From Sulfurimonas sp. HSL-1716 (GTDB lineage Bacteria; Campylobacterota; Campylobacteria; Campylobacterales; Sulfurimonadaceae), in contig NZ_CP147918.1 in NCBI RefSeq assembly GCF_039645975.1, forward strand, positions 682,001 through 746,000: a stretch of 64,000 nt of DNA. Direction: 5' to 3'. The notes beneath the pieces were generated by a model. It saw only the letters and a program-made list of their open reading frames with translations, was not told the DNA's origin and made no database searches. Within the stretch, counting starts at the first letter, position 1, and each line of letters starts with the position of its first letter. Of this stretch, positions 36,151 through 61,803 are shown piece by piece. Made by a program: the position numbers and the translations under genes.

Positions 36151-37193
36151 AAAATTATAAAAACATAATATTAAATCCAAGTTCCAGCATAAAAGAAGCA
36201 TTAAAAATCATCGATAGCGGAGCGATGAAAATTGCTCTTGTTGTTGATGAGAATGAAAAACTATTAGGCACGCTTACTGACGGCGATATCAGAAGAGGTC
36301 TTTTAAATAATCTTTCGCTCGACGATGCCATCGAACCTATTATTTTTAAAACACCGACAACCTGTTCAATCGAAGATACAAAAGAGAAAATACTGGAGAT
36401 AGCCGTAGAAAAAAAGCTTTATCAGATACCGGTAGTCGACAATACGGGAAAGCTTATAGGCATAGAAGAGGTCGATGAGCTTTTAAAACCTAAGAATAGG
36501 AATAATAAGGTCGTTTTGATGGTTGGCGGACTTGGTACCAGACTTAGACCTTTAACGGAAAAGATACCAAAACCGATGTTAAAAGTCGGAGATAAGCCTA
36601 TCTTAGAGACCATTATATTAAATTTCAAAAAATATGGATTTTCAAATATCGTTCTTAGTGTAAGTTACAAATCGGAGATGATCGAAAATTATTTTGGCAA
36701 CGGTTCAAAGCTTGGAGTTCATATAGAATATGTTCATGAAGAGAAAAGAATGGGTACGGCAGGAGCATTAAGTCTCATACAAGAGAAGTTGAATGAGCCG
36801 TTTTTTGTGATGAACGGTGATCTGCTTACAAATATTAATTTCGAACATATGATGGATTATCATATACAAAATAGTTCGGTCGCGACAATGGGGGTTCGAG
36901 AATACGATTTTCAGGTACCTTACGGTGTTGTCAATATAGACGGAATAAATATAAAAAGTATTGCGGAAAAACCGGTACACAATTTTTATGTAAGCGGCGG
37001 AGTGTATATACTTGATCGGGCAGTATTGGATTTTATACCGAAAAACCAATTTTTTGATATGCCGACACTTTTTGAAAAAGTTATTGCGAACAATATGAAA
37101 AGTATCTCTTTTCCTATACGGGAGTATTGGCTGGATATCGGCAGAATGGAAGAGTTCGAAAAAGCGAATAATGAATATCATAAGGTGTTTTGA
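36147..37193 (+). CDS. ptmE: PtmE: CBS-pair glucosamine-1-phosphate guanylyltransferase
   Basis: 348 residues. Two CBS motifs occupy residues 1-113 (SIKEALKIIDSGAMKIALVV, GTLTDGDIRRGLL, then IPVVDNTGKLIGI). A nucleotidyltransferase domain follows, with MVGGLGTRLRPLTEKIPKPM at about 125-144. This two-part layout is that of C. jejuni PtmE (Cj1329), which makes GDP-glucosamine and so commits this pathway to GDP- rather than UDP-linked intermediates. The CBS pair may bind adenine nucleotides for control. ATGA overlap with legG; the next gene begins right after the stop. Confidence 0.9.
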   Translation: MKNYKNIILNPSSSIKEALKIIDSGAMKIALVVDENEKLLGTLTDGDIRRGLLNNLSLDDAIEPIIFKTPTTCSIEDTKEKILEIAVEKKLYQIPVVDNTGKLIGIEEVDELLKPKNRNNKVVLMVGGLGTRLRPLTEKIPKPMLKVGDKPILETIILNFKKYGFSNIVLSVSYKSEMIENYFGNGSKLGVHIEYVHEEKRMGTAGALSLIQEKLNEPFFVMNGDLLTNINFEHMMDYHIQNSSVATMGVREYDFQVPYGVVNIDGINIKSIAEKPVHNFYVSGGVYILDRAVLDFIPKNQFFDMPTLFEKVIANNMKSISFPIREYWLDIGRMEEFEKANNEYHKVF

Positions 37194-38102
37194 TTGAAAG
37201 TATTGATTATCGGCTATGGTTCAATCGGTAAAAGGCACGAAGATGTGTTATCCAAGTTTGAAAGTATTAAGAATATCGATATCGTTACAAAACAAACATT
37301 GAAAGACAAAACAACATATATATCTTTAGAACAAGTACCTGATCTAGGTTTATATGATTATTTTGTCATCGCATCTGAAACAAATAAACATTATGAGCAG
37401 CTTGTATATTTGGAATCTCAAATTTCTGACAGATTGATTTTTTGCGAAAAACCTCTTTTTGAAACAAAAAGAGAGTTAAAAATAGAGAAAAATAAAGTTT
37501 TTGTCGGTTATGTACTTAGATTTCATCCATTGTTGAAAAAACTGAAAGATCTCATAGATAAAGAAAAAGTATTAAGTGCATATGTAAATTGCGGACAATA
37601 CTTGCCTGACTGGAGACCCGATATAGATTATAGAACTTCATATAGTGCGAAAAAAGATGGAGGCGGTGGAGTTTTACTTGATCTGACTCATGAAATAGAT
37701 TATGTACAGTGGTTATTCGGTAAAATAAAAGAGGTCAAAAGTTATCAGTTAAAAATCTCCGATTTAGAGATTGAGACGGATGATCTTACTACATTCATCG
37801 GCAAAACGAAAAACGGAACCATTGTTAATGTATCGATAGACTATATAAGTAAGATTACATATAGAAAAATGCTGGTGCATACTTTTGAACACAGCTATGA
37901 ATTAGACTTTATAAACAATCATCTAATCCAAAAAGATAAATCCGGTCTAGAGCAGGTTTATAATATGCAGATTTTGCAAAGAAATCATATGTTCGAACAG
38001 ATGCATAAAGCGATTTTGGATAATCAAAACGATGTATGCAGTTATGAAGAAGGATTGGAAACTATGAACACGGTATTTATGATTCAGGAACAAAATAGAT
38101 GA
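37194..38102 (+). CDS. ptmF: Gfo/Idh/MocA oxidoreductase, PtmF-like
   Basis: 302 residues. Rossmann start MKVLIIGYGSIGKRHEDVL, the family motif FCEKPLFE (about 82-90), and LLDLTHEIDYVQWLFG around residue 160. The start codon is TTG at 37194, immediately after the ptmE stop. Its place between ptmE and the CMP-synthetase matches ptmF (Cj1330) of C. jejuni. That protein has been linked with PtmA to making glucosamine-phosphate for the legionaminic acid route; the exact reaction is less firmly known than for the leg enzymes. ATGA overlap with legF. Confidence 0.8.
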   Translation: MKVLIIGYGSIGKRHEDVLSKFESIKNIDIVTKQTLKDKTTYISLEQVPDLGLYDYFVIASETNKHYEQLVYLESQISDRLIFCEKPLFETKRELKIEKNKVFVGYVLRFHPLLKKLKDLIDKEKVLSAYVNCGQYLPDWRPDIDYRTSYSAKKDGGGGVLLDLTHEIDYVQWLFGKIKEVKSYQLKISDLEIETDDLTTFIGKTKNGTIVNVSIDYISKITYRKMLVHTFEHSYELDFINNHLIQKDKSGLEQVYNMQILQRNHMFEQMHKAILDNQNDVCSYEEGLETMNTVFMIQEQNR

Positions 38103-38803
38103 AGAATGTACTATGTACTATATGTGCTCGAGGCGGTTCCAAAGGTGTGAAAAATAAAAATATCAAAGAGATAAACGGTAAGCCTCTTATAGCTTATACG
38201 ATCGAACAGGCTAAAGCTTCCGGATTATTTGAGCATATTGTGATCAGTACCGATTCGGATGAAATAGCTGATACTGCCAAAAAATACGGTGCTGAAGTGT
38301 TCTTTAAAAGAAGTGCTGAAATGGCAGGTGATACCGCAGGTAAGCTGGATGTCATAAAAGATGCTTTTATGAAGAGTGAAGAATATTACGGTAAGAAATT
38401 TGACTATTTGATAGATCTGGATGTAACCGCACCGCTTAGAAGCGTTGAAGATATAGTAGATTCGTTCGAACAGTTCATACAAAACGACAATGATAATCTT
38501 ATCACGGCTATGCCGAGCAGACGAAGCCCTTATTTTAATCTTGTAGAAGTAGATAAGAACGGTAAAGTAGAACTCTCCAAGAAACTGGACGATACGGTTG
38601 TAAGAAGACAAGACGCACCAAAAAGCTATGATATGAACGCCTCGATCTATATATGGAAAAGAGATACCATATTAAATGAAAATTCTATCTTTTTGGAAAG
38701 AACAGGTCTATACGTAATGCCCGAAGAAAGATCGATCGATATAGACAATGAACTTGATTTTGAATTTGTAGAGTTTTTGATGAGGAAACAAGATGCTAGA
38801 TAG
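38099..38803 (+). CDS. legF: CMP-N,N'-diacetyllegionaminic acid synthetase
   Basis: 234 residues of the CMP-sialate synthetase family. CARGGSKGVKNKNIKEINGKPL at the N terminus is the CTP-binding signature; DLDVTAPLRSVEDI carries the metal-binding Asp, and the RRQDAPKSYDMNASIYIW segment is typical of LegF/PtmB. It activates legionaminic acid with CTP for transfer by a glycosyltransferase. It overlaps ptmA by 11 bases, as expected for the ptmB-ptmA pair. Confidence 0.93.
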   Translation: MKNVLCTICARGGSKGVKNKNIKEINGKPLIAYTIEQAKASGLFEHIVISTDSDEIADTAKKYGAEVFFKRSAEMAGDTAGKLDVIKDAFMKSEEYYGKKFDYLIDLDVTAPLRSVEDIVDSFEQFIQNDNDNLITAMPSRRSPYFNLVEVDKNGKVELSKKLDDTVVRRQDAPKSYDMNASIYIWKRDTILNENSIFLERTGLYVMPEERSIDIDNELDFEFVEFLMRKQDAR

Positions 38804-39563
38804 CAAGGTAGTAGTCGTTACCGGCGGTGCAGGACTTATAGGAAAAGAGTTTATCAAAGCCATAGTGGAAAATGACGGTATAGCTGTAATCGCAGATATA
38901 AATGAAGAACTCGGTACAAAGGCAAAAGCAGACCTGTCAAAAGAACTGAACAGTTCAAATATAGATTTTATAAGACTTGATATCACTTCTACGGATTCAT
39001 TACAAGAGTGTCTAGAGTATCTTGACGGAAAATACGGCAGGATAGATGCGTTGGTAAATAATGCTTACCCGAGAAATAAAAACTACGGTAAGCATTTTTT
39101 TGATGTAAAGTATGAAGATTTTGTAGAGAACATAGGTTTAAACCTGGGCGGGTATTTTACTGCTTCACAGCAATTTGCTACCTATTTCCAGAAACAGGGA
39201 TATGGAAATATCATCAATATCAGTTCCATATATGGGGTAGTCGCTCCAAAGTTTGAGATATACGATAATACGCCGATGACAATGCCTGTAGAGTATGCCG
39301 CTATAAAATCAGGACTTATTCACCTTACAAAGTATATGGCAAAATACTTTAAAGGGATGAACATCAAGGTAAACGCGTTGAGTCCCGGCGGTATATTTGA
39401 TAATCAGCCGGAACCTTTTTTGGAAGCATATAAAAAACAATGCTCAAATAAAGGTATGTTAGATAAAAGTGATCTAAAAGGCACTCTGGTATACCTGCTT
39501 AGTGATATGAGCAGGTATGTGAACGGACAGAATATTATAGTTGATGATGGGTTTAGCTTATAA
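38793..39563 (+). CDS. ptmA: PtmA-like short-chain dehydrogenase
   Basis: 256 residues; classical SDR. VVTGGAGLIGKEF binds NAD(P), NISSIYG contains the catalytic Ser and YAAIKSGLIH the Tyr-Lys pair; the C terminus reads VNGQNIIVDDGFSL. PtmA is a standing member of Campylobacter flagellin glycosylation loci, between the CMP-synthetase and other legionaminate genes. It closes the strictly coupled gene block: a 60-base gap follows. A degraded copy of the 3' end of a related gene is found at about 45462-45520. Confidence 0.88.
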   Translation: MLDSKVVVVTGGAGLIGKEFIKAIVENDGIAVIADINEELGTKAKADLSKELNSSNIDFIRLDITSTDSLQECLEYLDGKYGRIDALVNNAYPRNKNYGKHFFDVKYEDFVENIGLNLGGYFTASQQFATYFQKQGYGNIINISSIYGVVAPKFEIYDNTPMTMPVEYAAIKSGLIHLTKYMAKYFKGMNIKVNALSPGGIFDNQPEPFLEAYKKQCSNKGMLDKSDLKGTLVYLLSDMSRYVNGQNIIVDDGFSL

Positions 39564-40562: not shown

Positions 40563-41292
40563 AATGGTTGGAGATCAAAGAAAAGTATCAAATTTGCTTG
40601 GAACAGGGATACAATATATTCCTGGACATATAGAGCCTTATGTAGATGAATGTGTTCAAGAAGTTCAGAAATATAAACCGAAAAGAATTTTAGAAATAGG
40701 CGGTGGAGGATTTCGTTTCATATCTGAAGTAATTACTAATGAAGCGATAAAGGAAGCTTTAATTATTGAACCAGATTATTATGCGTTAGATTATAAAAAA
40801 ATTTTAACTAAAATTGATCAATTGGAACTTATCGACCTGATGGAGAAAAAAGTAAATTTTTTTATTGGTACTGATGAAAAATATTTTGAAATTAATAATA
40901 TAAAAATGCAGTTTGACTGTATTGCAGCATTTAGAGTTTATCACTTTTCGACTCCTGAAAAATTTCAAAATATAATTCAAAAATTCAGTGAAATCATGAG
41001 TGAAAATGCGTTGCTTTTTCTTTCAGGAATGTGTAGTTTAGACTATTTAACAAAAGAAGAAAATATTTTTTTTACAAACTCAATGCCGATAAACAGTGAA
41101 AAATATTATAGAAAACTAGATCAAACAAATGAAATGGTCAGAGATGCAATTACAAAACAAAACTTACCGGAAAATATTTTATTTTTAGATATGGAATTCA
41201 TTGAAAGGAGTATTGGTAAAAATTTTAAAGTTCTAAAAGGGCCTATTATGAGTACTAAAATTGTTGCCGGGTACATATTGCAAAAAGTATGA
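40552..41292 (+). CDS. Class I SAM-dependent methyltransferase-like protein
   Basis: 246 residues. RILEIGGGGFRFISEVI at about 44-60 is motif I of class I methyltransferases and ALIIEPDYYALDY the acidic loop after strand 2. A later FDCIAAFRVYHFSTPEKFQ fits motif IV/post-IV. The segment after residue 170 lacks recognisable family marks, so substrate is unknown. It overlaps the glycosyltransferase by 11 bases and the WbqC-like gene by 4, so the three are coupled. A role in decorating the sugar made by this sub-cluster is the simplest reading. Confidence 0.75.
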   Translation: MSFKMVGDQRKVSNLLGTGIQYIPGHIEPYVDECVQEVQKYKPKRILEIGGGGFRFISEVITNEAIKEALIIEPDYYALDYKKILTKIDQLELIDLMEKKVNFFIGTDEKYFEINNIKMQFDCIAAFRVYHFSTPEKFQNIIQKFSEIMSENALLFLSGMCSLDYLTKEENIFFTNSMPINSEKYYRKLDQTNEMVRDAITKQNLPENILFLDMEFIERSIGKNFKVLKGPIMSTKIVAGYILQKV

Positions 41293-41981
41293 AAAAAATA
41301 GCAATATTACAATCTAATTATATTCCATGGAAAGGTTATTTCGATCTAATAAGCAGTGTAGATGAATTTATTTTTTATGATGATGTTCAATATACAAAAA
41401 ATGATTGGCGAAACCGAAACAAAATAAAAACATTTCAGGGTGTTCAGTGGATAACGATCCCAGTAGAACAAAAAAATTTGGAGCAAAAAATAAAAGATAC
41501 TAAAGTTGCAGACAATAGATGGAATAAAAAACATTGGAGTACAATATCCCAAAGCTATGCAAAAGCAAAATATTTTCAAGAATATAAAGACATTTTTGAA
41601 GAACTATATTTAAAGGGTGAAGAGAAGTATTTGAGCGAGATAAACTATAAATTTATAATGACTATAAATAAGATACTCGGTATAACTACGAAAATCAGAT
41701 GGTCAGATGAATTTGAATTGTCAAATGGACAAACTGAAAAACTGTTGGCGATTTGTAAACAGTGTGATGCCAATGTATATCTGAGTGGACCTGCTGCAAA
41801 AAATTATTTTAATAAAAATCTGGCAAAACAGGAAAATATTCAAGTAGAATGGATAGACTACAGCGGTTATCCCGAGTATAACCAACTTTTTTTGCCATTT
41901 GAGCATAGCGTGAGTATAATAGATCTTATTTTCAATGAAGGACGAAATGCAACCCAATTTATGAAGAGTTTTGAATGCTAA
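41289..41981 (+). CDS. WbqC-like family protein
   Basis: 230 residues. The N terminus KIAILQSNYIPWKGYFDLI, followed by EFIFYDDVQYTKNDWRNRNKIK and WITIPV, is the signature of the WbqC-like family found in O-antigen loci; WSDEFEL and the C-terminal LPFEHSVSIIDLIFNEG also match. The biochemical activity of the family is not established; members commonly stand beside DegT-type aminotransferases and may modify the amino sugar. Here a WecE-like aminotransferase is two genes downstream. ATGA overlap with the preceding methyltransferase. Confidence 0.9.
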   Translation: MKKIAILQSNYIPWKGYFDLISSVDEFIFYDDVQYTKNDWRNRNKIKTFQGVQWITIPVEQKNLEQKIKDTKVADNRWNKKHWSTISQSYAKAKYFQEYKDIFEELYLKGEEKYLSEINYKFIMTINKILGITTKIRWSDEFELSNGQTEKLLAICKQCDANVYLSGPAAKNYFNKNLAKQENIQVEWIDYSGYPEYNQLFLPFEHSVSIIDLIFNEGRNATQFMKSFEC

Positions 41982-42801: not shown

Positions 42802-43935
42802 ATGATACCGTTTAATAAACCTCCTTCGACTGGGAATGAAGAACAATATATATTGCAATCGATAAAAAGCCTTAAAATCTCAGGAGATGGAGACTTTTCA
42901 AAAAAATGTCATCAATGGTTTGAAGAAAAGCTAAATTGTGAAAAGGTACTTTTAACGCCGTCATGTACTCATGCGCTTGAAATGGCAGCAATACTTCTTG
43001 ATATAAGAGAAGGAGATGAAGTTATTATGCCTTCATATACATTTGTCAGTACAGCAAATGCTTTTACTTTAAGAGGGGCAAAAATTGTTTTTGTAGATAT
43101 CCGTCCCGATACCATGAATATAGATGAAACAAAAATAGAGCAAGCGATCACAAATAAAACAAAAGTTATAGTTCCTGTTCATTATGCCGGCATAGCATGC
43201 GAAATGGATGCGATTATGAAAATTGCATCACGATATGGTCTTTTTGTTGTAGAAGATGCAGCTCAAGGAATGATGAGCAGTTATAAAAACAGACCACTAG
43301 GAACGATCGGGCATTTAGGAACCTATAGTTTTCATGAAACAAAAAATTATACAAGTGCGGGAGAAGGCGGACTTTTAATAATAAATGATAAACAGTTTAT
43401 TGAAAAAGCAGAAGTCATAAGAGAAAAAGGAACCAACAGGAGCCTGTTTTTCAGAGGGATGGTCGACAAATACACATGGGTAAATATAGGAAGCAGCTAT
43501 CTTCTCAATGATGTTAGTGCAGCATATTTATGGGGTAATCTTGAAAAAGCAGATGAAATTAATCAAAACAGATTAAATTCTTGGCAAAGTTATTATAAGG
43601 AATTAAAACCACTAGAAGAAAAAAGATTAATAGAACTTCCCAATATCCCAAAAGAATGTATTCATAATTCTCATATGTTTTATTTGAAAGTAAAAGATAT
43701 TGAAGAAAGAACAAAATTTTTAGAATATTTAAACAAAAATGGAATATTTGCAGTATTTCATTATGTACCTCTGCATTCGTCCGCTGCCGGTAAAAAGTTC
43801 GGTAGATTTGTTGGGAAAGATATTTTTACAACACGAGAAAGTGAAAGATTGGTAAGGCTGCCCATGTATTATCAATTAAAGCCAAAAGATATTTACTATA
43901 TTAGCAGGATTGTTCATGACTATTTCTCAAACTAA
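42802..43935 (+). CDS. WecE/RffA-like sugar aminotransferase (dTDP-4-amino-4,6-dideoxygalactose type)
   Basis: 377 residues, DegT/DnrJ/EryC1/StrS family. The N terminus MIPFNKPPSTGNEEQYI is the recognisable WecE start; TPSCTHALEMAAILL, EDAAQGMMSSYKNRPLGTIG, and the PLP-binding lysine K181 in YSFHETKNYTSAGEGG follow. WecE makes dTDP-4-amino-4,6-dideoxygalactose from the 4-keto sugar; the dTDP-glucose genes (rmlA, rmlB) are not in this window. It would create the free amine that the ligase/acyl carrier/acyltransferase set downstream could acylate. The next gene overlaps by 20 bases. Confidence 0.9.
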   Translation: MIPFNKPPSTGNEEQYILQSIKSLKISGDGDFSKKCHQWFEEKLNCEKVLLTPSCTHALEMAAILLDIREGDEVIMPSYTFVSTANAFTLRGAKIVFVDIRPDTMNIDETKIEQAITNKTKVIVPVHYAGIACEMDAIMKIASRYGLFVVEDAAQGMMSSYKNRPLGTIGHLGTYSFHETKNYTSAGEGGLLIINDKQFIEKAEVIREKGTNRSLFFRGMVDKYTWVNIGSSYLLNDVSAAYLWGNLEKADEINQNRLNSWQSYYKELKPLEEKRLIELPNIPKECIHNSHMFYLKVKDIEERTKFLEYLNKNGIFAVFHYVPLHSSAAGKKFGRFVGKDIFTTRESERLVRLPMYYQLKPKDIYYISRIVHDYFSN

Positions 43936-45466: not shown

Positions 45467-45520
45467 TAAAGTAAAAATACAAAAGGACAAAATATAGTAG
45501 ATGATGGATTTTAGCCTATG
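45462..45520 (+). pseudogene. Remnant of the 3' end of a ptmA-like dehydrogenase
   Basis: From 45485 the bases track the last codons of ptmA (39519-39563) with one 3-base deletion and one added T. The peptide reads G-Q-N-I-V-D-D-G-F against GQNIIVDDGF in PtmA. Weaker likeness reaches back to about 45462. In the ancestor the dehydrogenase would have ended in an ATGA overlap with the ligase start at 45518. Confidence 0.7.
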
Positions 45521-47071
45521 ATAATAAACTTTTTAATTAAAAATGCAAAACAGTTTCCGGACAGAGCAGCTATTATTGTATCTGATAAAACGTATACATA
45601 TTCGGAGTTGACGGAAGATGTTAAATGTTTATCTCAACTTTTAGAAAATGTTGGTGTTCAAAAAAAAGAACATATATTGATTTTATTAGATAATTCATAT
45701 GAGTTTGTTGTAACAATGTTTGCAGTTGCCAACTTAGGTGCTGTTTTAGTGCCGATCAACACAACTATGAGTGATGATGCTATTGAAAAAGCAATGAAAA
45801 GTTCAGATATTCAATATATTATCGGCTTGTCAAATGTTATAAAGCAGCACGCAGACAAATTACAAACCATTCTGGATAGTAAAAAATGGATTGTTGTCGG
45901 TGAAAAAGTTTTAGAGAGTAAAGTTTTTCAAGATATAAAAAGATATAGAACAAAGACATACTCTTTGGGGCAATATGATATAGATATAACCAGTCCATAT
46001 ATTCTAACGATGACATCTGGATCGACAGGTGAACCAAAGCCAATCATTTTTTCTCAAGAAACAAAGATTAATAGGGCTATGCTAAGTGCAAAAGAACTTT
46101 ATGGACTGATTCAAGAGGATGTTATAATCGCATCATCGCCTATGTACCACTCTCTAGCACAGCGACTTGTTTTACTCCCTATTATGTTAGGTGCTACATC
46201 AGTGCTTCTAAAAAAATTCAATCCTCAGGTTTGGTTAGAAGCTGTTGAAAAACATAAAGTTTCTTTTGCAATACTAGTTGCGTCTAACTTGGAATTGTTA
46301 TTACTCAAATTAAAAGAGAAGACTTTTAATTTGGATTCATTGCGCACAGTTGTTTCATCTTCAGCGTTATTAAAAGATGATATAAAAAGTGAATGCATTA
46401 AACAGTTTAATGCTGATTTCCATGAAATGTATGGGGCATCAGAAATAGGAACAGCAACAAACTTATCACCTAATGATAGTAAAAATAAAGTGAGCAGTGT
46501 TGGAACGCCTCTAAGATATGTTGACTTAAAAATAGTTGATGATAATGGTGAAGAAGTTGTTGCAAATACTGAAGGTGAGATTATTTGTAAGACTCTTACA
46601 AAATTTGTAGGATATTATAAAAATGAAAAAGCAACGAATGAAAGTGTAAAAAACGGATATTTTTATACAGGAGATATCGGATACGTCGATGATGAAGGGT
46701 TTTTATATTTCAAAGGAAGAAAAAAAGATGTCATCAATGTCGGAGGTACTTTAGTGTACCCAAAAGATATAGAAGATGTTATCAGTAAATTTGAATTTGT
46801 TGAAGAATGTGCAGTGATAGGTGTTGATGATATCTATTTCGGAGAAGCGGTAGTTGCTGTAATAGTGCCGAAAAAGAATATGGATTTTAATTTAACAAAA
46901 ATTAAATTAGAGTGTAGAAATTCTTTAGCCGATTTTCAACAGCCCATGGGATATGAAATTATTGAAGCTTTGCCGAAAAATTCAATGGGAAAAGTGATGA
47001 AGTTTAAAATTCAAGAGATGTTCAAAGATTATGATGCCTCGGCTTTAATTAGAAAGTTAATGAAGATATAA
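45518..47071 (+). CDS. Adenylate-forming acyl/amino-acyl ligase (ANL superfamily)
   Basis: 517 residues. TMTSGSTGEPKP (about 167-178) is the phosphate loop, MYGASEIG the adenine-binding motif, YFYTGDIGYVDDEGFLYFKGRKKDVI the hinge region, and PKNSMGKVMK near the end holds the catalytic lysine. It should activate a carboxylic acid as an AMP ester and load it on a thiol. A free-standing acyl carrier protein is encoded at 53172-53417, so that is the likely acceptor. C. jejuni's flagellin glycosylation island also has a stand-alone activating enzyme and acyl carrier protein (Cj1307, Cj1308). Substrate (fatty, hydroxy or amino acid) cannot be read off. Confidence 0.88.
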   Translation: MIINFLIKNAKQFPDRAAIIVSDKTYTYSELTEDVKCLSQLLENVGVQKKEHILILLDNSYEFVVTMFAVANLGAVLVPINTTMSDDAIEKAMKSSDIQYIIGLSNVIKQHADKLQTILDSKKWIVVGEKVLESKVFQDIKRYRTKTYSLGQYDIDITSPYILTMTSGSTGEPKPIIFSQETKINRAMLSAKELYGLIQEDVIIASSPMYHSLAQRLVLLPIMLGATSVLLKKFNPQVWLEAVEKHKVSFAILVASNLELLLLKLKEKTFNLDSLRTVVSSSALLKDDIKSECIKQFNADFHEMYGASEIGTATNLSPNDSKNKVSSVGTPLRYVDLKIVDDNGEEVVANTEGEIICKTLTKFVGYYKNEKATNESVKNGYFYTGDIGYVDDEGFLYFKGRKKDVINVGGTLVYPKDIEDVISKFEFVEECAVIGVDDIYFGEAVVAVIVPKKNMDFNLTKIKLECRNSLADFQQPMGYEIIEALPKNSMGKVMKFKIQEMFKDYDASALIRKLMKI

Positions 47072-47072
47072 A

Positions 47073-47576
47073 ATGATCTATATAGTTTGTGGCGTATCAG
47101 GGGCGGGTAAAACTTCGGTCGGTATTAGATTGGCAGAACTGTTGACCTGTCCTTTTTATGATGCAGATGATTATCATTCTGATATCAATATTGAAAAAAT
47201 GGCAAATAATATTCCTTTAACGGATGATGACAGATCACAGTGGCTTGAGAAGTTATCTCAAGAGATCAAGGGCTGGAATGAGCACAATAAGATGAGTGTT
47301 CTTGCATGTTCTGCATTAAAAGAAAAATATAGAAAAATATTGTCTAAAGGATCGTTTGATATCGTACAATATATATTTTTAGATATAGATTATGATACTG
47401 CTTATCGACGTTTAAAAGCGAGACAGAATCATTTTTTCTCAGAAGAGCTTTTAAAAAGTCAATATGATATTTTGGAAATAAACAATAATGTATTGACCGT
47501 CTCTATGGGTAATGATAACTCTGTAGATGAGATATGTAGTAAAATAATGACTCAAATTGGTAAGGATATGTTGTGA
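47073..47576 (+). CDS. gntK: Gluconokinase
   Basis: 167 residues. MIYIVCGVSGAGKTSVG is the P-loop; FYDADDYHSDINIEKMANNIPLTDDDRSQWL is the strongly conserved GntK substrate segment, and LACSALKEKYRKIL and HFFSEELLKSQYDILE follow. It phosphorylates gluconate to 6-phosphogluconate. It is fused in operon with gnd by a 4-base GTGA overlap, giving a gluconate to ribulose-5-phosphate route. No gluconate transporter or glucose dehydrogenase is in the window. Its presence inside a glycan island is unusual. Confidence 0.93.
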   Translation: MIYIVCGVSGAGKTSVGIRLAELLTCPFYDADDYHSDINIEKMANNIPLTDDDRSQWLEKLSQEIKGWNEHNKMSVLACSALKEKYRKILSKGSFDIVQYIFLDIDYDTAYRRLKARQNHFFSEELLKSQYDILEINNNVLTVSMGNDNSVDEICSKIMTQIGKDML

Positions 47577-49006
47577 AATACGATATAGGTGTATATGGAC
47601 TTGGCGTCATGGGACAAAATATTGCATTAAATTTTGCAAACCATGGATTTAATGTGGCAGTTTTCAATCGGTATGATGTCAATGAAGAGAAAGCCGTACA
47701 AAAATTTATGGATAAAAAATGTAGAAACAAAACTGTTACCAGATTTTTGAACATAAATGATTTTGTAAGCTCTCTTAAAAATCCTAAAAAAATCTTAATG
47801 ATGATTACTGCAGGTAATGCGGTGGATAAGGTTATAGAAGAAACAATTCAGTATTTAGCCAAAAATGATATTTTGATAGATGGCGGGAACTCACATTACG
47901 AAGATACAAAAAGAAGACTTGACTTTTTAGCATCAAAACAGATCAGGTATCTTGGATGCGGTATTTCCGGAGGTTCTGAAGGCGCTTTAAAAGGTCCGTC
48001 AATAATGGTCGGCGGCGATGTAAGTGCATGGAACGATACAAAAGAGATACTGCAGGCAATAGCTGCTAAAGATAGAAACAATGAATATTGTTGTCGATGG
48101 ATCGGTTCTGAAGGTTCCGGGCATTTTGTTAAAATGGTGCATAACGGTATCGAATATTCGTTAATGCAGATCATAGCAGAATCATATGATATGCAAAAAA
48201 GAATGCTCAATATGCAGCCTGATGAAATTAAAAAAGTGTATGATGATTGGAATGAAGCAGAGGGACGCAGTTACTTAATGAAAATCACTGCACAAATAGT
48301 TACGATGACCGATAAGAATGGTAATTATATTTTAGATGAGATCCTTGATAGTTCCAGTCATAAAGGAACAGGCAAAGACACCTCTATCGCTGCATTAAAC
48401 CTAGGTGTCCCGGCACCGCCGTTAACAGCCTCTGTAAATGAAAGATATATATCAAGTCTATCAGATTTACGTTTTTGTTACTCTTCCAAAAGTGTAAGTG
48501 AAAAGGAGTTATATGCTCAAATACAGACGCATTTATTGAGATTGAAAGATGCTCAGTATTTAGCACAAATTATTTCATATGTAAACGGACTGATGATCAT
48601 TTCTGAAGCCTCTGATAAATTTAATTGGAACATAAACATTCAAGAAGTTGCCAAAGTTTGGTTAAACGGATGTATTATTGAATCAGAGATATTATATAAA
48701 TTAGTGGATATTATTGAGAAACAAAATACGAATAATAAAAATCTTTTACTGTCCCGGCAAATAATAGACTGTGTAAACTTAAAAGTTGAAAATTTAAGAG
48801 AAACCGTACTTACAGCCATTACGCACCGTATTCCGATACCTGTGATGTCATCCGTTTTGTCTTTTTTAGATTCAATATCGTCTGAAGTGCTGCCTGCAAA
48901 TCTGATACAAGCGCAAAGAGATTATTTTGGTCAACATGGATATCAAAAAAAAGGTATGAGCGATACAATGACTTTTCATTTAAGGAATGATAATGAAAAT
49001 ATTTGA
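47573..49006 (+). CDS. gnd: 6-phosphogluconate dehydrogenase (decarboxylating)
   Basis: 477 residues, the full length of the dimeric enzyme. GLGVMGQNIALNFANHGF binds NADP, GGNSHYEDTKRR and GISGGSEGALKGPSIMVGG shape the active site, and MVHNGIEYSLMQIIAE holds the catalytic lysine region. The usual GTGKWT motif reads GTGKDT, a conservative-looking change near the substrate. The C terminus retains PANLIQAQRDYFGQHGYQ. Start is GTG at 47573. gnd often lies beside O-antigen loci in enterobacteria, but here it is inside the locus with gntK. Confidence 0.94.
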   Translation: MKYDIGVYGLGVMGQNIALNFANHGFNVAVFNRYDVNEEKAVQKFMDKKCRNKTVTRFLNINDFVSSLKNPKKILMMITAGNAVDKVIEETIQYLAKNDILIDGGNSHYEDTKRRLDFLASKQIRYLGCGISGGSEGALKGPSIMVGGDVSAWNDTKEILQAIAAKDRNNEYCCRWIGSEGSGHFVKMVHNGIEYSLMQIIAESYDMQKRMLNMQPDEIKKVYDDWNEAEGRSYLMKITAQIVTMTDKNGNYILDEILDSSSHKGTGKDTSIAALNLGVPAPPLTASVNERYISSLSDLRFCYSSKSVSEKELYAQIQTHLLRLKDAQYLAQIISYVNGLMIISEASDKFNWNINIQEVAKVWLNGCIIESEILYKLVDIIEKQNTNNKNLLLSRQIIDCVNLKVENLRETVLTAITHRIPIPVMSSVLSFLDSISSEVLPANLIQAQRDYFGQHGYQKKGMSDTMTFHLRNDNENI

Positions 49007-49625
49007 TGTTTCTGTTCCGGTTTCGAAAAATATGATATCCTGGCCTGGTGATCCGTCCGTTGAACTGTCGAAGTCGGTATCCATTGCAAAGGGCGATCTC
49101 TGTAACGTAACGAATTTATGCATGGGAGTCCATAGCGGTACGCATATAGATGCTCCGTATCATTTTATTGAATCCGGCGATACGGTCGATGCGATAGATA
49201 TTGAACTGCTGATCGGTGACTGCCTCGTAATAGAGGTCGATGTTCAAACAACCATAGAGTATGAAGATATCAGATCATATAACATACATGGGTATACGAA
49301 GATTTTATTTAAAACTAAAAATTCTACGTTTTGGAAAGATGATTTTTTTCATAAGGATTTCATCTCATTGGGAATGAGTGCTGCCAAATATTTAGTTGAA
49401 AATAATATAGGTCTGATAGGTATAGATTATTTGTCTATTGAATCATTTAATTCTAAAGATGCTAGTATTCATAAATTTTTGTTAGAAAAAAACGTAATTA
49501 TCCTTGAAGGTTTGAATCTGGCGAACATTAAAAGTGGAAGATATGAGCTTATATGTATGCCTTTAAAACTGATAGGAACGGATGGTGCACCGGCAAGGGT
49601 AGTTCTAAAAAGCCTTGAAAATTGA
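48993..49625 (+). CDS. Cyclase-family (kynurenine-formamidase-like) metal hydrolase
   Basis: 210 residues from the ATG at 48993, chosen because AAGGA at 48982-48986 is 6 bases upstream; an ATG at 48987 adds two residues. MGVHSGTHIDAPYHF is the HxGTHxDxPxH metal-binding motif of the PF04199 cyclase family, with GLIGIDYLSIE and LEGLNLANIKSGRYELICMPLKL typical of the rest. Members hydrolyse formyl-kynurenine or isatin, or close lactam/lactone rings. In this setting it could release a formyl or acyl group or cyclise a precursor; the substrate is not evident. It overlaps the gnd end by 14 bases. Confidence 0.85.
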   Translation: MKIFDVSVPVSKNMISWPGDPSVELSKSVSIAKGDLCNVTNLCMGVHSGTHIDAPYHFIESGDTVDAIDIELLIGDCLVIEVDVQTTIEYEDIRSYNIHGYTKILFKTKNSTFWKDDFFHKDFISLGMSAAKYLVENNIGLIGIDYLSIESFNSKDASIHKFLLEKNVIILEGLNLANIKSGRYELICMPLKLIGTDGAPARVVLKSLEN

Positions 49626-49654: not shown

Positions 49655-52027
49655 ATGGATATAGTTAATAAAAAAAATGAAGATATTATCTTTAGTATCA
49701 TAATACCGACATATAACTCCAGCGGTTTTATCTATAAATGTTTAGATAGTCTGAATAGACAAAATTTTCCGCATGATAAATTTGAAGTCGTTGTCGTAGA
49801 CGACGCCTCAAGTGACGATACGATAAAAAAAGTTAAAAAATATAATAAATTGAACCTAAAATTAATTGAGTTAACTGAGAACGGAGGTCCGGGTACTGCA
49901 AGAAACCATGGCATCGATGCTTCAAACGGAGAGTGGCTATTATTTATAGATAGCGATGATATCGTAACGGAGGATTATCTGTCTTCATTAAACTCGTATA
50001 TCGTTCATAACGATAAAAATCTGATGGCAGTCGGATTTGACTGGGCAAGAGATTCCGCAAAACATAATGAATCAAGAAAAGATTTTTATACCGGGAGAAG
50101 AGACGGTAAATTTTTATTTGATAAAAACACGTTAATAGATAATTTTCTTTCTGCAAGAATGGACGGTTCGGTCATTTATACCGCAATGAGAAAGGATCTT
50201 ATAAAAAAACATAATATATATTTTGCAGGTGGTCTGCATGAAGATATAGATTTTATATATAAAATTTATCAATTTGCAGAAAAAACAGGCTATTTAAATA
50301 AAATCCTATACTTAAAAAGCCATAGAGAAGAATCGATTATAAATACAGTCTCGCAAAAGCATATTGAGGGGTATATTAGAGCATGGCGTGAGATAGGAAA
50401 GACTTTAAAAGATGCTATTAGCAGCGGGTTGTTGTCAGAAAAATTTCTAGAAAGCTATTCTTTAGGTTTAATCGGTATGGTTGCAAGCCGTGTGAAGGAG
50501 ATTAGGAGACACTCTTCAAATAGGGAACAAATTATAAAACTATATGAATTTTTATATGACCATTCTTTAAAGTTAATAAGTATTGATAAAATAAAAAATA
50601 TAACATCAACATGTAAGACCTCGTATTGTCAAATCACAAAAGAGTTTATGGACATAATGTCTAAACGAGATATGAGTCTTGCCAAGAGAGTAGAAGCGGT
50701 GCTTGATTATGTCAGCAGTATGGAAGGGAAGAGCTGGAGTTGTACCGATCTGCACTATTCTGTTTTTCTAAGACCAAATGAAGTCAATACCTGCTGTCGA
50801 AGATTTTTTGTAAATAACCAAAGAAAAGGGGATGTGACCATACTCTCTGTTGAGAAAGATCCTGAGCAGATAATTAGCAGTTATGATATTTTAAATGCGA
50901 AAAAAGAGCTGCATCATCAAATAAATACCGGCATTGAAAATCCTTGTGACGGCTGTCCTTTCTTGGAATATAAAGAATGGGATGCGATAAACTCTCTTGA
51001 CATCAGATATCTTTCGTTCGAATATCATTCAGTGTGTAATTTAAGATGTTCCTATTGCAGTGATGAATATTACGGCGGATCACAGCCTTCGTATAATATT
51101 ATGGGAACGATAGACGCATTTTTAGAGGAGGGCAGTTTAGACAACTGCCATACCGTTGTGTGGGGCGGAGGAGAGCCGACTATCGATAAAAATTTTGACG
51201 GCATCTTAGAACAGATCTCAAATAAAATTCCAAATGCAAGACATAGGCTGGTTACCAATGGAATAAAAAGATCCGAGATAGTAGAAAAATTATTATCAGA
51301 AAATAAACTGCAATTGACAACAAGTATAGATTCGGGATCTGAAAAAACTTTTGAGTTGGTCAGAGGCCGAAATAATTTAAAAGACGTTATAGGCAATCTC
51401 ATAGAGTATTCGTCCATAAATCCAAACTTAGTAACGATTAAATATTTATTTACTGAGGGTAATGGAACGATTGAAGATCTTGAGAATTTTGCAGATCTGA
51501 TAGAAAAGAACGAACTTCAAAATTGCTTATTTCAAATTAGTATGGATTTCAAATATGAGCATCTTGATATCGATTTCACAAAAAATATGATAATCCTATA
51601 CGGGTTATTGAAAAAGATAAATTGTAAAACGGTTTACTTCGATGAGATTGTTTTACAAAGAATAAGAGATATAAAGTTCGTAAAAGAATTAAATGTGGAC
51701 GAGATATGCCGGTATGTAGGACTTGATTTTATTGCAAAACCTAGCGAATATCCTAAAATAGTCATATGGGGTGCAAGCGGGAATTCAAAAAGTTTACTTG
51801 AAAAAAGTATATTTTTTAAAGATTTTGAGATAGAGTTTTTTGTTGATAGCGATGTAAAAAAGCATACAAAGAAGTTTTGCGGTAAAGATGTTAAACCGCC
51901 GGAAGTTTTAAAAAATACCGATTACAATATATTGATAACGGCAGTTCAAGGGTATGGAGAAATATTAAAAGCGTTGGAGAAGATGGATTATCCGTTAGAG
52001 TATGTAATAGATAAGTTGATCATTTGA
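49655..52027 (+). CDS. GT2 glycosyltransferase / SPASM-like / radical SAM / Rossmann fusion protein
   Basis: 790 residues in four parts. Residues 12-250: GT-A glycosyltransferase with SIIIPTYNSSGF, VVVDDASSDDT, FIDSDD (97-102) and the catalytic-type HED at 195-197. Residues 360-440: a SPASM/Twitch-like cysteine region, with Cys363, Cys380-381 and C431-x2-C434 around an RPNEVNTCC stretch. Residues 450-690: radical SAM core, C461-x3-C465-x2-C468, followed by GGGEPT at 504-509. Residues 700-790: a small nucleotide-binding-type domain, VIWGASGNSKSLLEK then FFVDSD. No stop or frameshift interrupts it. It suggests a sugar-transferring protein that also does radical chemistry on the glycan or a linked group. 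I know of no characterised protein with this order. Confidence 0.85.
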   Translation: MDIVNKKNEDIIFSIIIPTYNSSGFIYKCLDSLNRQNFPHDKFEVVVVDDASSDDTIKKVKKYNKLNLKLIELTENGGPGTARNHGIDASNGEWLLFIDSDDIVTEDYLSSLNSYIVHNDKNLMAVGFDWARDSAKHNESRKDFYTGRRDGKFLFDKNTLIDNFLSARMDGSVIYTAMRKDLIKKHNIYFAGGLHEDIDFIYKIYQFAEKTGYLNKILYLKSHREESIINTVSQKHIEGYIRAWREIGKTLKDAISSGLLSEKFLESYSLGLIGMVASRVKEIRRHSSNREQIIKLYEFLYDHSLKLISIDKIKNITSTCKTSYCQITKEFMDIMSKRDMSLAKRVEAVLDYVSSMEGKSWSCTDLHYSVFLRPNEVNTCCRRFFVNNQRKGDVTILSVEKDPEQIISSYDILNAKKELHHQINTGIENPCDGCPFLEYKEWDAINSLDIRYLSFEYHSVCNLRCSYCSDEYYGGSQPSYNIMGTIDAFLEEGSLDNCHTVVWGGGEPTIDKNFDGILEQISNKIPNARHRLVTNGIKRSEIVEKLLSENKLQLTTSIDSGSEKTFELVRGRNNLKDVIGNLIEYSSINPNLVTIKYLFTEGNGTIEDLENFADLIEKNELQNCLFQISMDFKYEHLDIDFTKNMIILYGLLKKINCKTVYFDEIVLQRIRDIKFVKELNVDEICRYVGLDFIAKPSEYPKIVIWGASGNSKSLLEKSIFFKDFEIEFFVDSDVKKHTKKFCGKDVKPPEVLKNTDYNILITAVQGYGEILKALEKMDYPLEYVIDKLII

Positions 52028-52063: not shown

Positions 52064-53155
52064 ATGAAAAAATATAAATTGGCTTTTATCGGAGGAAGTA
52101 AATACTCAATAGCGGGGACTCCTCATTATATTGCAAGTCAAATGGATGACAGGTTTGAGGTTGTAGCAGGCGTGTTTAGCAGTAAATCTGAAATTAATCA
52201 TGAAATGGAACAAGCATGGAATGTAAAAAGTTATAATAACTACATCACGATGCTCGAATGTGAAGATATCGATATCGTTGCGATATTGACGCCTACACCG
52301 TTGCATTTTGAAGCATTGGAATATCTATTAAGCAAAAATATTCCCGTGATCTGTGAAAAACCATTGGTTTCTTCATTAGCCGATGCCGTAAGACTGGAAG
52401 AACTCTCTAAAAATAAATTTTTGGTAGTAACGAATAATTATAGCGGATATCCAATGGTCAGGGAACTAAAAGAAAGAATAGTGAACAACGAATTAGGCGA
52501 AATAATAAATATTAAACTAGAGATGCCTCAAGAAACATTTTTAAGACCTCCAAAAAGTGTAAAATATCCGCAGCCTTGGAGATTGAAAGATGATTACATT
52601 CCAATGATCTGTCTGGATTTAGGCGCACACCTACATCATTTGGCTTATTTTCTCATTGAAGAGGAACCTGATGAGATTATAGGGCATTTCAGTACATTTT
52701 CCTCATATAATGTCATTGATGATGTGAAAATGCTTTTAAACTATAAGGACAATAAAAAAGCTTCGCTTTGGATCAGTAAAAGTGCCATTGGACATAGAAA
52801 CGGATTAAGCATAGAAGTATATGGAACAAAAGGAAGTGCTAGCTGGGTTCAAGAAAAATCAGAAGAATTAAAGATGTCTTTTTTTAACGGCGATAAGATT
52901 ATTGTGGATAGAGGCAATGATTGCATGATCGCAAATGAAAAAAGATATAATAGAATGACGTCGGGACATCCTTCCGGATTTATCGAAGCTTTTGCAAATT
53001 TATATACTGATATAGCAGAACAGTTCGATAATTTTAATCAGAAAAACTCCTATAAAAGCAAATATGTCTTTGGAATCGAACACGCGAAGAACGGTTTAAA
53101 CCTGTTTCATAAGGCAAAAGAGTCGTTTGAAAAGAAAGAATGGGTCAAATTATAA
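52064..53155 (+). CDS. Gfo/Idh/MocA-family sugar oxidoreductase
   Basis: 363 residues. The Rossmann start is KLAFIGGSKYSIAGTPHYIAS, slightly atypical (GGS rather than GxGxxG); ILTPTPLHFEALEYLLSKNIPVICEKPLVSS gives the EKP catalytic lysine motif, and MICLDLGAHLHHLAYFLIEEEP holds the histidines of the sugar site. The wider C-terminal domain has IEVYGTKGSASW. It probably oxidises or reduces a nucleotide sugar, as WlbA- or KijD10-type enzymes do, before amination or acylation. It precedes the acyl carrier protein gene by 16 bases. Confidence 0.88.
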   Translation: MKKYKLAFIGGSKYSIAGTPHYIASQMDDRFEVVAGVFSSKSEINHEMEQAWNVKSYNNYITMLECEDIDIVAILTPTPLHFEALEYLLSKNIPVICEKPLVSSLADAVRLEELSKNKFLVVTNNYSGYPMVRELKERIVNNELGEIINIKLEMPQETFLRPPKSVKYPQPWRLKDDYIPMICLDLGAHLHHLAYFLIEEEPDEIIGHFSTFSSYNVIDDVKMLLNYKDNKKASLWISKSAIGHRNGLSIEVYGTKGSASWVQEKSEELKMSFFNGDKIIVDRGNDCMIANEKRYNRMTSGHPSGFIEAFANLYTDIAEQFDNFNQKNSYKSKYVFGIEHAKNGLNLFHKAKESFEKKEWVKL

Positions 53156-53171
53156 AGGTAAAGGATACTAT

Positions 53172-53417
53172 ATGAATGAATATAAAGAATTTTTGATCTC
53201 TTGGATCTGCGAAAAAACAGGAATAGAAAAAAACAAAATAGATAGTGAGATCAATATGTTTGAGAACGGTTATGTGGATTCTCTTTCCTTATTCGGTTTA
53301 TTGCTGGATATTGAAACGAACTTTGGCGTAACACTGGACACGGATGATATTTTAAATGATCGGGCAGCGACCGTAGATGGATTGTCTGAAATCCTTAAAA
53401 ATAAAAGTAATAGTTAA
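53172..53417 (+). CDS. Acyl (or peptidyl) carrier protein
   Basis: 81 residues from the ATG at 53172, which follows AAAGGTAAAGGATA; an open reading upstream to 53127 overlaps the previous gene and is not needed. Asp36-Ser37-Leu38 in GYVDSLSLFGLLLDIE is the phosphopantetheine attachment site, and helix 3 reads TLDTDDILNDRAATVDGLSEIL. It differs clearly from housekeeping AcpP (no DSLDTVE). With the ligase at 45518 and the GNAT-like protein immediately after it, it probably presents an acyl or amino-acyl group for transfer to an amino sugar. Confidence 0.9.
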   Translation: MNEYKEFLISWICEKTGIEKNKIDSEINMFENGYVDSLSLFGLLLDIETNFGVTLDTDDILNDRAATVDGLSEILKNKSNS

Positions 53418-55426: not shown

Positions 55427-55975
55427 ATGTTTTTGGATATAATAAATAAAATAAGATTTGACATAAAAAATGACAGAGTGGGACCGGATTGCCCTTTTAC
55501 ACATTGGAAATTATATTTTAAATCCAGCATGCTGCATCTTTGTAAAAAAAAGTTTGAAAGTTTTGACGATACGGCAGAATTTAGAGCAGGTGCCTATGCA
55601 ATATGCTGTTCAAAGATCTCTATCGGGAAAAAAGTCATTATTAGACCGCAAACGATGATCTTTGCCGATCCTCGCGATGAAAATTTAGGGAAAGTGATTA
55701 TTGAAGATTTTGTCATGATGGGTTCAGGCGTACATATTTATACGTCAAACCATAAATATGATGATAAGGAAAAATATTTAATAGAACAATATAGTTATGA
55801 GGCAGAGAATGTTTACTTGAGAAAAGGTTGCTGGATAGGTGCGAATTCAATAATACTGCCCGGCGTTGAAATAGGTGAAAACAGTATAGTTGGAGCAGGC
55901 AGCGTTGTCACTAAAAATGTTCCGTCTAGAACAATATATGCTGGTAACCCTGCAAAATTAATTAAAAAGATCTGA
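55427..55975 (+). CDS. Hexapeptide-repeat (LbH) sugar O-acetyltransferase
   Basis: 182 residues. Hexapeptide repeats run from about residue 55 to the end: [18 protein letters not shown], then [14 protein letters not shown] with the catalytic-type His, and [48 protein letters not shown]. The last segment is the WbbJ/CatB-like end. It most likely acetylates a sugar hydroxyl, using acetyl-CoA, in the cytoplasm. It lies 7 bases after the deacetylase and 5 before the flippase. Confidence 0.9.
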
Positions 55976-60018: not shown

Positions 60019-61803
60019 ATGAGTAGTAATATATTAAGTTTTACGATGAGTGGACATGGATTTAGTGGCGTTTTGGTTATAGATGGAGAAGTAAAAATTG
60101 CTACTAGTTTAGAAAGACTTACAAGAATTAAAAATGATATTTTATTACCTATATCTAAAAATGATCTAAAAACTTTTGGATGGAACTCTAATCCGGCGAT
60201 ATATGAAAAAAACGTTGACCTGCCGTTTGATCTGCAAAACGACTATTCTACGGTAGATTTCAGCAAATCAGCAAACTTTTTAAAACTTTTGAACTACTTA
60301 TTAGATTCCCAAAATTTAACTATCGATGATATTGATTACGTAGCTTACAGTTATAGATATAATGAATCAATGAAGCAGTTTTTCTATAATCAAAATCCAA
60401 ATATAAAATTTGTTGAGTTAGAGCATCATTTCGGTCACGCCTGTCAAGCCTTTTTACCTTCTGGCTTTGAAGATGCAGCAATTATGGTCGTTGACGGACA
60501 AGGCGTGCCTTTGAAAAGAACAGGAGGAGATCAATTATCGGGATGTCTGGCTTATGGTCAAGGAAATCAGATAGATACATTCTATGATTTACCGGTTCGG
60601 CATAGTCTGGGAGGCATGTATGCAGCCTTTACAAAAAAAGTCGGCTTTAAAACGAATGAAGAGGGGAAAACGATGGGGCTAGCCCCATACGGATCACCTA
60701 GATACTATGATATATTGAAAAAAGATCTGATTTTTAATACAACGGAGTATAGTATTAAGGATTTTAAACAACTGGTAAAAAGAGGTTTTAGCAAAAGAGA
60801 GGTGTTATATCAATTACCGGATTATAACAAGTTTTTAAAATCTTTTCCGACAAGATTAAAATCGGAAGAGATCACTGATGTACATAGAGATTTAGCATAT
60901 GCTGTTCAAAAATTAACAGAAGATGTAATGATCTTTCTTGCTAACTGGCTTTATGAAAAAACAGGTTCTAAAAATCTCTGTATAGCCGGTGGCGTGGGTC
61001 TTAACTGTGTCGCAAATTATCAAGTCCTCATACATTCTAAATTCGATAATATTTTTATTCACCCGAATTCAGGGGATAACGGTTTAGCAGTAGGACAAGC
61101 CCTTTATGTACATAATGTTCTTAATAATAACCCGAGAACCTACGTAGCGACAACAGATTCCCTTGGTAAAGAATATACTGATGATGACATAAAAGAAGCG
61201 ATAAACAAATATTCAAATGACGAAGATCTTGAAATAATACACTATACGAATCTAGATGAATTATATGATACGTTCGCTTCATATATTGAGCAAGGATACA
61301 TAACGAGTTGGTTCCAGGGACGAAGCGAGTTTGGACCTAGAGCACTTGGTAATAGGAGTATTATTGCAGATCCGAGAAGAAAGGATATGAAAGACATCCT
61401 TAATTCTAGGGTTAAATTTAGGGAAAGCTTTAGACCGTTCACTCCTTCGGTTTTAGCAGAAAAAGTAAATGAGTTTTTTGAGTTAGAGATAGATTCTCCT
61501 TTTATGTTATTGGCCGCATACGTAAGAAAAGGCAAAGCGGAACTGGTTCCGGCAATTACACACGAAGACAATACGGCAAGGATTCAAACAGTAACAGAAG
61601 ATATAAATCCGCCATATTATCATTTAATTAAAGCATTTTATAAACGAACGGGTATTCCGTTAATTTTGGAAACATCATTCAATATAGCGGATGAGCCGAT
61701 CGTTGAAACACCTTCGGATGCGATTCGAACATTTAAATCAACGGATATTGATATACTCTGTTTAAAAGATTATATTATAAAGAAAAAGAGTAAGGGTATA
61801 TAG
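60019..61803 (+). CDS. NodU/CmcH-family carbamoyltransferase
   Basis: 594 residues. The N-terminal Kae1-like domain has MSGHGFSGVLVIDGEVKIATSLERLTRIK, ELEHHFGHACQAFLPSGF (metal-binding HxxxH) and CIAGGVGLNCVANY. The C-terminal domain has WFQGRSEFGPRALGNRSIIADPR and FRESFRPFTPSVL, the YrdC-like carbamoyl-transfer marks of NodU, TobZ and CmcH. It uses carbamoyl phosphate and ATP to carbamoylate a hydroxyl, here probably of a glycan sugar. An unbroken run of 10 A (59996-60005) precedes the GGA ribosome-binding site. Confidence 0.93.
   Translation: MSSNILSFTMSGHGFSGVLVIDGEVKIATSLERLTRIKNDILLPISKNDLKTFGWNSNPAIYEKNVDLPFDLQNDYSTVDFSKSANFLKLLNYLLDSQNLTIDDIDYVAYSYRYNESMKQFFYNQNPNIKFVELEHHFGHACQAFLPSGFEDAAIMVVDGQGVPLKRTGGDQLSGCLAYGQGNQIDTFYDLPVRHSLGGMYAAFTKKVGFKTNEEGKTMGLAPYGSPRYYDILKKDLIFNTTEYSIKDFKQLVKRGFSKREVLYQLPDYNKFLKSFPTRLKSEEITDVHRDLAYAVQKLTEDVMIFLANWLYEKTGSKNLCIAGGVGLNCVANYQVLIHSKFDNIFIHPNSGDNGLAVGQALYVHNVLNNNPRTYVATTDSLGKEYTDDDIKEAINKYSNDEDLEIIHYTNLDELYDTFASYIEQGYITSWFQGRSEFGPRALGNRSIIADPRRKDMKDILNSRVKFRESFRPFTPSVLAEKVNEFFELEIDSPFMLLAAYVRKGKAELVPAITHEDNTARIQTVTEDINPPYYHLIKAFYKRTGIPLILETSFNIADEPIVETPSDAIRTFKSTDIDILCLKDYIIKKKSKGI

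Follow-up and report, generated by a model that had tools for sequence, protein, structure and literature searches.

How can a glycosyltransferase and a radical SAM enzyme come to share one polypeptide, and what might such a protein do? The question is raised by a gene of Sulfurimonas sp. HSL-1716 that lies in the 64,000 nt stretch of contig NZ_CP147918.1 analyzed here (positions 682,001 to 746,000, hereafter the window). An original prediction, made from the sequence alone, described its product as one uninterrupted 790-residue protein with four domains and a role in glycan modification.

Domain organization of the fusion protein

The gene is a single 790-aa frame running from ATG to stop on the + strand, and the antisense frame is full of stops. 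A run of eight A residues at window positions 49670–49677 (codons 6–8) is a possible slippage site. The parts of the gene are as follows, with the basis of each assignment in parentheses.

49655..52027, + strand, whole fusion gene, GT2–helical linker–twitch–radical SAM–Rossmann, 790 aa (ORF, Pfam, AlphaFold2)
49691..50344, + strand, GT-A glycosyltransferase domain, residues 13–230 (Pfam, Foldseek, alignment)
50354..50725, + strand, helical linker, residues 234–357 (AlphaFold2 secondary structure)
50729..50974, + strand, pre-core Cys region, probably of twitch type, residues 359–440 (invariant Cys, model, phage parallel)
51002..51643, + strand, radical SAM barrel, residues 450–663 (Pfam, Foldseek)
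51035..51058, + strand, CX3CX2C radical SAM cluster motif, residues 461–468 (sequence, alignment)
51752..52024, + strand, C-terminal Rossmann-like domain, residues 700–790 (profile match, hhalign)

The AlphaFold2 model, built from 13 aligned members (mean pLDDT 83.6), consists of a GT-A-like part (13–230), helices (234–357), a hairpin-plus-helix twitch (369–425), an alternating beta/alpha barrel (452–662) and a Rossmann-like end (702–790), and a second model restricted to residues 340–790 is consistent with it. The four domains follow one another in the order originally predicted, as judged from Pfam, the model and Foldseek, and a radical SAM barrel was found by the same three methods within the interval where it had been expected (residues 450–690). 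The predicted limits of the domains required correction: the GT-A domain ends near residue 230, a helical linker occupies residues 234–357, and the twitch region spans approximately residues 359–440.

By Pfam score and conserved motifs, the N-terminal part is a GT2 glycosyltransferase of the GT-A type, for which transfer activity is predicted. PF00535 (Glycos_transf_2) matches residues 14–152 with an E-value of 2e-33 and 116 bits, against a gathering score of 23.3. The motifs present are D49 D50, DSDD (99–102) and HED (195–197), and D49, D50, D99, D101, D102, H195, E196 and D197 are invariant in the 13 aligned members. Foldseek relates this part to the glycosyltransferases TarS, TarP and RmlT, which have the GT-A fold in common with it but, unlike the fusion, lack a radical SAM part and have wall teichoic acid as their target.

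The second half belongs to the radical SAM superfamily, as indicated by motif, Pfam score and the modeled barrel fold, and cleavage of SAM is predicted. PF04055 (Radical_SAM) matches residues 459–609 (E-value 1.6e-15; 58.1 bits against a gathering score of 29.5). The CX3CX2C core with a GGGEP sequence, which the prediction had pointed out, is present as C461-x3-C465-x2-C468 and GGGEP at 504–508, and the cluster motif is kept in all members of the fusion family. Many radical SAM structures were matched by Foldseek with a probability of 1.00, the neighbors including SkfB, BlsE, SuiB, anSME, DesII and CteB. Among these, SkfB, SuiB and CteB are peptide maturases and rank with the best structural neighbors, while BlsE and DesII act on sugars or nucleosides.

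Ahead of the core lie the additional cysteines that had been proposed to hold an auxiliary Fe-S cluster (C363, C380, C381, C431 and C434), all at the positions first given for them. They form the pattern C-x16-CC-x49-CxxC and are invariant in 13 full-length rows of the alignment and in a split form of the protein. In the model, residues 369–425 adopt a hairpin-plus-helix topology. The SPASM family PF13186 gave zero Pfam matches in the fusion, in which the Cys region is N-terminal to the core and the C-terminus is Rossmann-like; comparison of the twitch region with five C-terminal SPASM domains using hhalign gave a weak match (15%) with the CC and CxxC in register. Assignment as a twitch region is likely on the basis of Cys pattern, model topology and a phage parallel described below, and an auxiliary Fe-S cluster is likewise a likely prediction from the conserved cysteines.

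Placement of the twitch region before the core had been considered new. This order is not new, because there is precedent in NCBIfam NF033640 (N_Twi_rSAM), where, as in the fusion, the twitch Cys set is N-terminal to the CX3CX2C core: the first 70 positions of this model match C-terminal SPASM domains, and positions ~100–318 match the core. The same order is seen in a protein of Vibrio phage F86 (CAM0060303.1; C...CC...CxxC, then CX3CX2C), which matches NF033640 along its length with 134.7 bits (cut-off 170) and aligns with the fusion in register from the CxxC onward. Encoded at positions 922–1977 of L115, it is a phage-borne example of an N-terminal-twitch radical SAM protein, and phage radical SAM proteins give long collinear fold matches to the fusion. 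NF033640 proteins lack the GT and Rossmann domains of the fusion, and the fusion is not itself a member of that family, as it scores 41–44 bits against the cut-off of 170 with a match limited to the core region. A phage origin of the fusion was also considered and rejected, with zero matches in viral contigs and none in phage records at an E-value of 1e-5; its sole phage relatives are remote N-twitch radical SAM proteins. A plasmid search for copies of the fusion returned one match, at 22%.

The C-terminal domain gave a sub-threshold Pfam match to PglD_N (residues 701–746) and a weak profile match to 3nkl, a UDP-quinovosamine 4-dehydrogenase (E-value 0.0024). It was also matched by hhalign, with 92.6% probability, to the N-terminal Rossmann domain of FkbM methyltransferases found in sister cassettes, and therefore one kind of accessory domain rides on different tailoring enzymes.

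Distribution and conservation of the family

Full-length relatives, with radical SAM halves ~42% identical to that of the window protein, were found in two other genomes of the class sample, so that the fusion occurs in 3 of 397 class genomes. Within the host's own family, one further full-length member was present (2 of 228 genomes carry the fusion). When genome contigs were scanned with a profile of three rows, 12 loci were detected, and at 11 of these the whole four-part architecture was present (Rhodocyclales, Accumulibacter, an alphaproteobacterium, a betaproteobacterium, Colwellia, Methylophaga, Rhizobium, Helicobacter, Acidobacteria, Poribacteria and Verrucomicrobiota). Because the protein of the Helicobacter locus (L054) is identical to that of genome G256, the total is 14 full-length proteins including that of the window. 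The search for the full architecture across genomes thus yielded 13 further proteins with 31–40% identity and the four parts in the same order. They span five phyla (Campylobacterota, Pseudomonadota, Acidobacteriota, Poribacteria and Verrucomicrobiota), and the split form is found in a sixth.

The split form is that of Prochlorococcus (L056), in which a GT2 frame is followed by an adjacent frame for twitch, radical SAM and Rossmann parts. The best matches of the GT2 frame are the GT domains of the fusion family. The two halves (9005–11308 of L056) are in-frame with one TGA between them, an arrangement that could reflect gene fission, read-through or a sequence error.

Phylogenies computed separately for the GT half and the remaining half recover the same main groups, although many inner forks are weakly supported, and the four Campylobacterota proteins are spread over the main groups. 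Given this agreement, the fusion seems to have been transferred as a unit, and the sequence comparisons suggest that the two halves travel together.

These data bear on two skeptical readings. The fusion could be an assembly artefact or an accidental gene join, for which the low frequency of the fusion (2 of the 228 genomes of the family) might speak. However, 13 other full-length proteins share the architecture, and the junction recurs across numerous independent assemblies and phyla, which rules out a chance join, frameshift or chimeric assembly; a stop or frameshift separating two genes, raised in the original prediction as the outcome that would undo it, is ruled out on the same grounds, and the artefact reading, already refuted, retains a negligible probability. 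Alternatively, the GT half alone might be catalytic and the twitch-radical SAM half a structural or redox-sensing relic. Against this, there is no variation in any of the eight Fe-S cysteines, or in the GGG of the SAM motif, across aligned members only 31–40% identical, and Prochlorococcus retains the radical SAM part as a frame of its own. We consider a relic very improbable.

Gene neighborhoods and proposed function

The fusion gene lies in a cluster with the following genes.

42802..43935, + strand, DegT/DnrJ/EryC1 sugar aminotransferase of the cassette (PF01041, E-value 3e-83)
45518..47071, + strand, AMP-forming acyl/aminoacyl ligase of the cassette (Pfam, neighborhood comparison)
47073..47576, + strand, gluconokinase-like kinase (TIGR01313, above cut-off)
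47573..49006, + strand, 6-phosphogluconate dehydrogenase (TIGR00873, above cut-off)
48987..49625, + strand, PF04199 cyclase/formamidase-like hydrolase (Pfam)
52064..53155, + strand, partner Gfo/Idh/MocA dehydrogenase of a distinctive subfamily (Pfam, co-location in most members)
53172..53417, + strand, small acyl carrier protein, PP-binding (PF00550, E-value 5e-7)
55427..55975, + strand, hexapeptide-repeat acyltransferase, candidate N- or O-acyltransferase (Pfam)

Comparison of neighborhoods shows that the recurrent companions of the fusion are a Gfo/Idh/MocA dehydrogenase, a DegT aminotransferase and either an ATP-grasp or an AMP-forming ligase. The last is accompanied in several loci by a small acyl carrier protein (ACP) and a hexapeptide acyltransferase; in L047, L052 and L054, ACP genes lie close to the homologue. 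Nearly all cassettes include a module for carboxylate activation, either an ATP-grasp enzyme or an AMP-ligase together with an ACP. The possibility that the ligase type tracks phylogeny was unsupported on the radical SAM tree. In G556, genes for RmlA, RmlB, FdtA and DegT adjoin the fusion gene, a set pointing to a predicted dTDP-3-amino-3,6-dideoxyhexose in that genome; partial sets occur in G042 and L055. Flagellin genes lie close to the fusion gene only in L053, L055 and G042; none was found in the window, the 20 kb before it or the 40 kb after it, apart from one FlgK-like gene. A glycan-modification role, as first proposed, is thus supported by the gene neighborhoods, and participation of the fusion in glycan tailoring is probable.

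The dehydrogenase gene adjoins or lies near the fusion gene in most loci. Its family occurs in 16 of 397 class genomes, including all three fusion carriers; the chance of this co-occurrence is 5e-5 on the assumption, which does not hold, that the genomes are independent. An exclusive partnership is ruled out by the 13 genomes that have the dehydrogenase and lack the fusion. In those 13 genomes an ATP-grasp enzyme or AMP-ligase is usual in the cassette, and the majority encode FkbM methyltransferases that have a Rossmann domain of their own at the N-terminus, free-standing radical SAM/SPASM enzymes, or both. Six loci of Helicobacteraceae type (L093, L095, L097, L098, L099 and L101) combine the dehydrogenase with separate radical SAM/SPASM enzymes and lack the fusion, most of them also having FkbM methyltransferases that bear the N-terminal Rossmann domain. 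Runs of 10–11 G (or C) residues are present in a second radical SAM gene (L093, 8813; L095, 1154; L054, 12029), and in L093 and L095 its frame is broken near the run, as in phase-variable genes.

Directly upstream of the fusion gene is the trio of kinase, 6-phosphogluconate dehydrogenase and hydrolase (47073–49625), and the same trio follows the homologue in G556. Two genomes from a single family carry it, in the window and at 4650–7186 of L062, and it was not seen in the other neighborhoods. The PF04199 hydrolase occurs in 2 of the 228 family genomes, both of them fusion carriers, and the 6-phosphogluconate dehydrogenase in four. The hydrolase gave no matches in 15 other Campylobacterales genomes and one among 11 other fusion-bearing or split-form genomes; because it is missing from almost all genomes checked elsewhere, the system can in general do without it. 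That the trio might serve gluconate recycling is offered only as an idea.

Other genes of the window may concern the same cell surface. A nonulosonate pathway of legionaminic-acid type (31087–39563) comprises a dehydratase, DegT, PglD/NeuD, NeuB, NeuC, a CBS-nucleotidyltransferase, a Gfo/Idh/MocA protein, a CMP-transferase and an SDR. The glycan may be sulfated, as sulfate-activation genes (28046–31085) adjoin this pathway. A carbamoyltransferase (60019–61803) and a WbqC-like protein (41289–41981) are candidates for tailoring steps.

From the precedents of viosamine, BtrN and AprD4/AprD3, a scheme of transfer plus a radical step is proposed. The cassette would make an amino-deoxysugar (RmlA/RmlB/FdtA/DegT type), and a carboxylate activated by the ATP-grasp enzyme, or by the AMP-ligase plus ACP, would acylate the sugar amine. 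The GT2 half would pass the N-acyl amino sugar to a glycan of flagellin or of O-antigen type, and the twitch-radical SAM half, through a 5'-deoxyadenosyl radical, would carry out one oxidation, dehydration or epimerization on the same residue. The twitch Fe-S cluster might act as electron relay or acceptor, the dedicated Gfo/Idh/MocA dehydrogenase would finish the redox step as a partner, and the C-terminal Rossmann domain may be a binding or docking module for nucleotides or sugar nucleotides. We regard the chances that the fusion is a bifunctional surface-glycan tailoring enzyme acting in this complete manner as evenly balanced, and the particular reaction and substrate are put forward tentatively. 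The reading is favored by the conserved domain order and GT and Fe-S residues of the 14 full-length members, by the amino-sugar and flagellin genes near some of them and by the resemblance of the radical SAM part to BlsE and DesII, among others; against it count the peptide maturases among the best structural neighbors and the occurrence of the dehydrogenase in genomes that lack the fusion.

Two alternatives concern the target of the radical chemistry. In the first, the radical SAM half acts on the N-acyl or aminoacyl group rather than the sugar ring. The side chain would come from the ATP-grasp or AMP-ligase/ACP module, and the completed unit would be transferred by the GT. The near-universal carriage of the carboxylate-activating module is in keeping with this, as is the relationship of the cassette ATP-grasp, whose nearest relatives are PurD/CPS-type enzymes and L-amino-acid ligases; many SPASM/twitch enzymes, moreover, modify amino acid side chains. 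On the other hand, the type of ligase varies while the fusion protein is constant, and the dedicated neighboring dehydrogenase is of a sugar/inositol type, which favors the sugar. Modification of the acyl group is accordingly a minority prospect, though one of some weight.

In the second, the acceptor is a protein such as flagellin, of which a peptide side chain would be changed by the radical SAM half and glycosylated by the GT half, in a RiPP-like manner. The peptide maturases among the top Foldseek matches would fit, as would the flagellin genes near three fusion loci (L053, L055 and G042) and the example of mycofactocin, where a separate radical SAM enzyme and GT2 act on one peptide. However, the neighbors are mostly sugar-nucleotide enzymes, the GT part resembles glycosyltransferases of glycopolymers, and no precursor peptide was noticed in an unsystematic look at small ORFs. 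A protein substrate for the radical step is improbable.

For the preferred reading, that of transfer and radical modification of a sugar, the recurrence of the fusion beside unusual amino-sugar genes suggests an undescribed way of decorating cell-surface or flagellar sugars. It is conceivable, if doubtful, that a dispersed class of GT-radical SAM enzymes performs radical chemistry on the very sugar transferred; if true, surface and flagellar glycans would bear sugars not yet seen. The fusion ties radical chemistry to surface-glycan assembly, and the enzymes likely to make its substrate are encoded by neighboring genes. It might open a further route to modified amino sugars and account for some unassigned modifications of bacterial flagellin and O-antigen glycans.

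Comparison with known systems

The nearest described logic is that of the viosamine island of Pseudomonas syringae, which N-acylates an amino sugar and transfers it to the flagellin glycan (PMC3927599). Capping of the glycan there involves an aminotransferase, acylation that relies on an ACP, a methyltransferase and the glycosyltransferase VioT, which requires the modified amino group (PMC3927599). The cassette of the window likewise unites a sugar aminotransferase, an ACP/acyl module and a GT, but the seven named genes of the island (vioA, vioM, vioT, vioS, vioB, vioR and acp; PMC3927599) include no radical SAM, ATP-grasp or Gfo/Idh/MocA gene. ACP and AMP- or CoA-ligase genes are also carried by flagellin islands of Aeromonas and enterobacteria (PMC7874193, PMC4875605).

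Precedents for the radical step are BtrN, a twitch enzyme that oxidizes an amino-cyclitol, and AprD4, a radical dehydratase that works with the reductase AprD3 (PMC9012708, PMC5461906). As is proposed for the fusion, both apply radical SAM chemistry to amino-cyclitols or amino sugars, and the use by AprD4 of a separate reductase resembles the possible pairing of the fusion with the Gfo/Idh/MocA dehydrogenase. The twitch of BtrN, however, is a C-terminal extension, whereas that of the fusion precedes the core, and BtrN and AprD4/AprD3 are encoded by separate genes with no GT fusion reported.

Mycofactocin biosynthesis also places a radical SAM/SPASM enzyme (MftC) and a GT2 (MftF) in one pathway, and the fusion weakly matches the models for MftF and the mycofactocin radical SAM enzyme. 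MftC and MftF are the products of separate genes, act on a peptide, and the SPASM domain is C-terminal. A GT-radical SAM fusion was undescribed in the literature searched (radical SAM with glycosyltransferases, glycans and nucleotide sugars; few subscription journals covered). The domains are known, as is the kind of locus; what is new is the conserved combination of glycosyltransferase and radical SAM enzyme.
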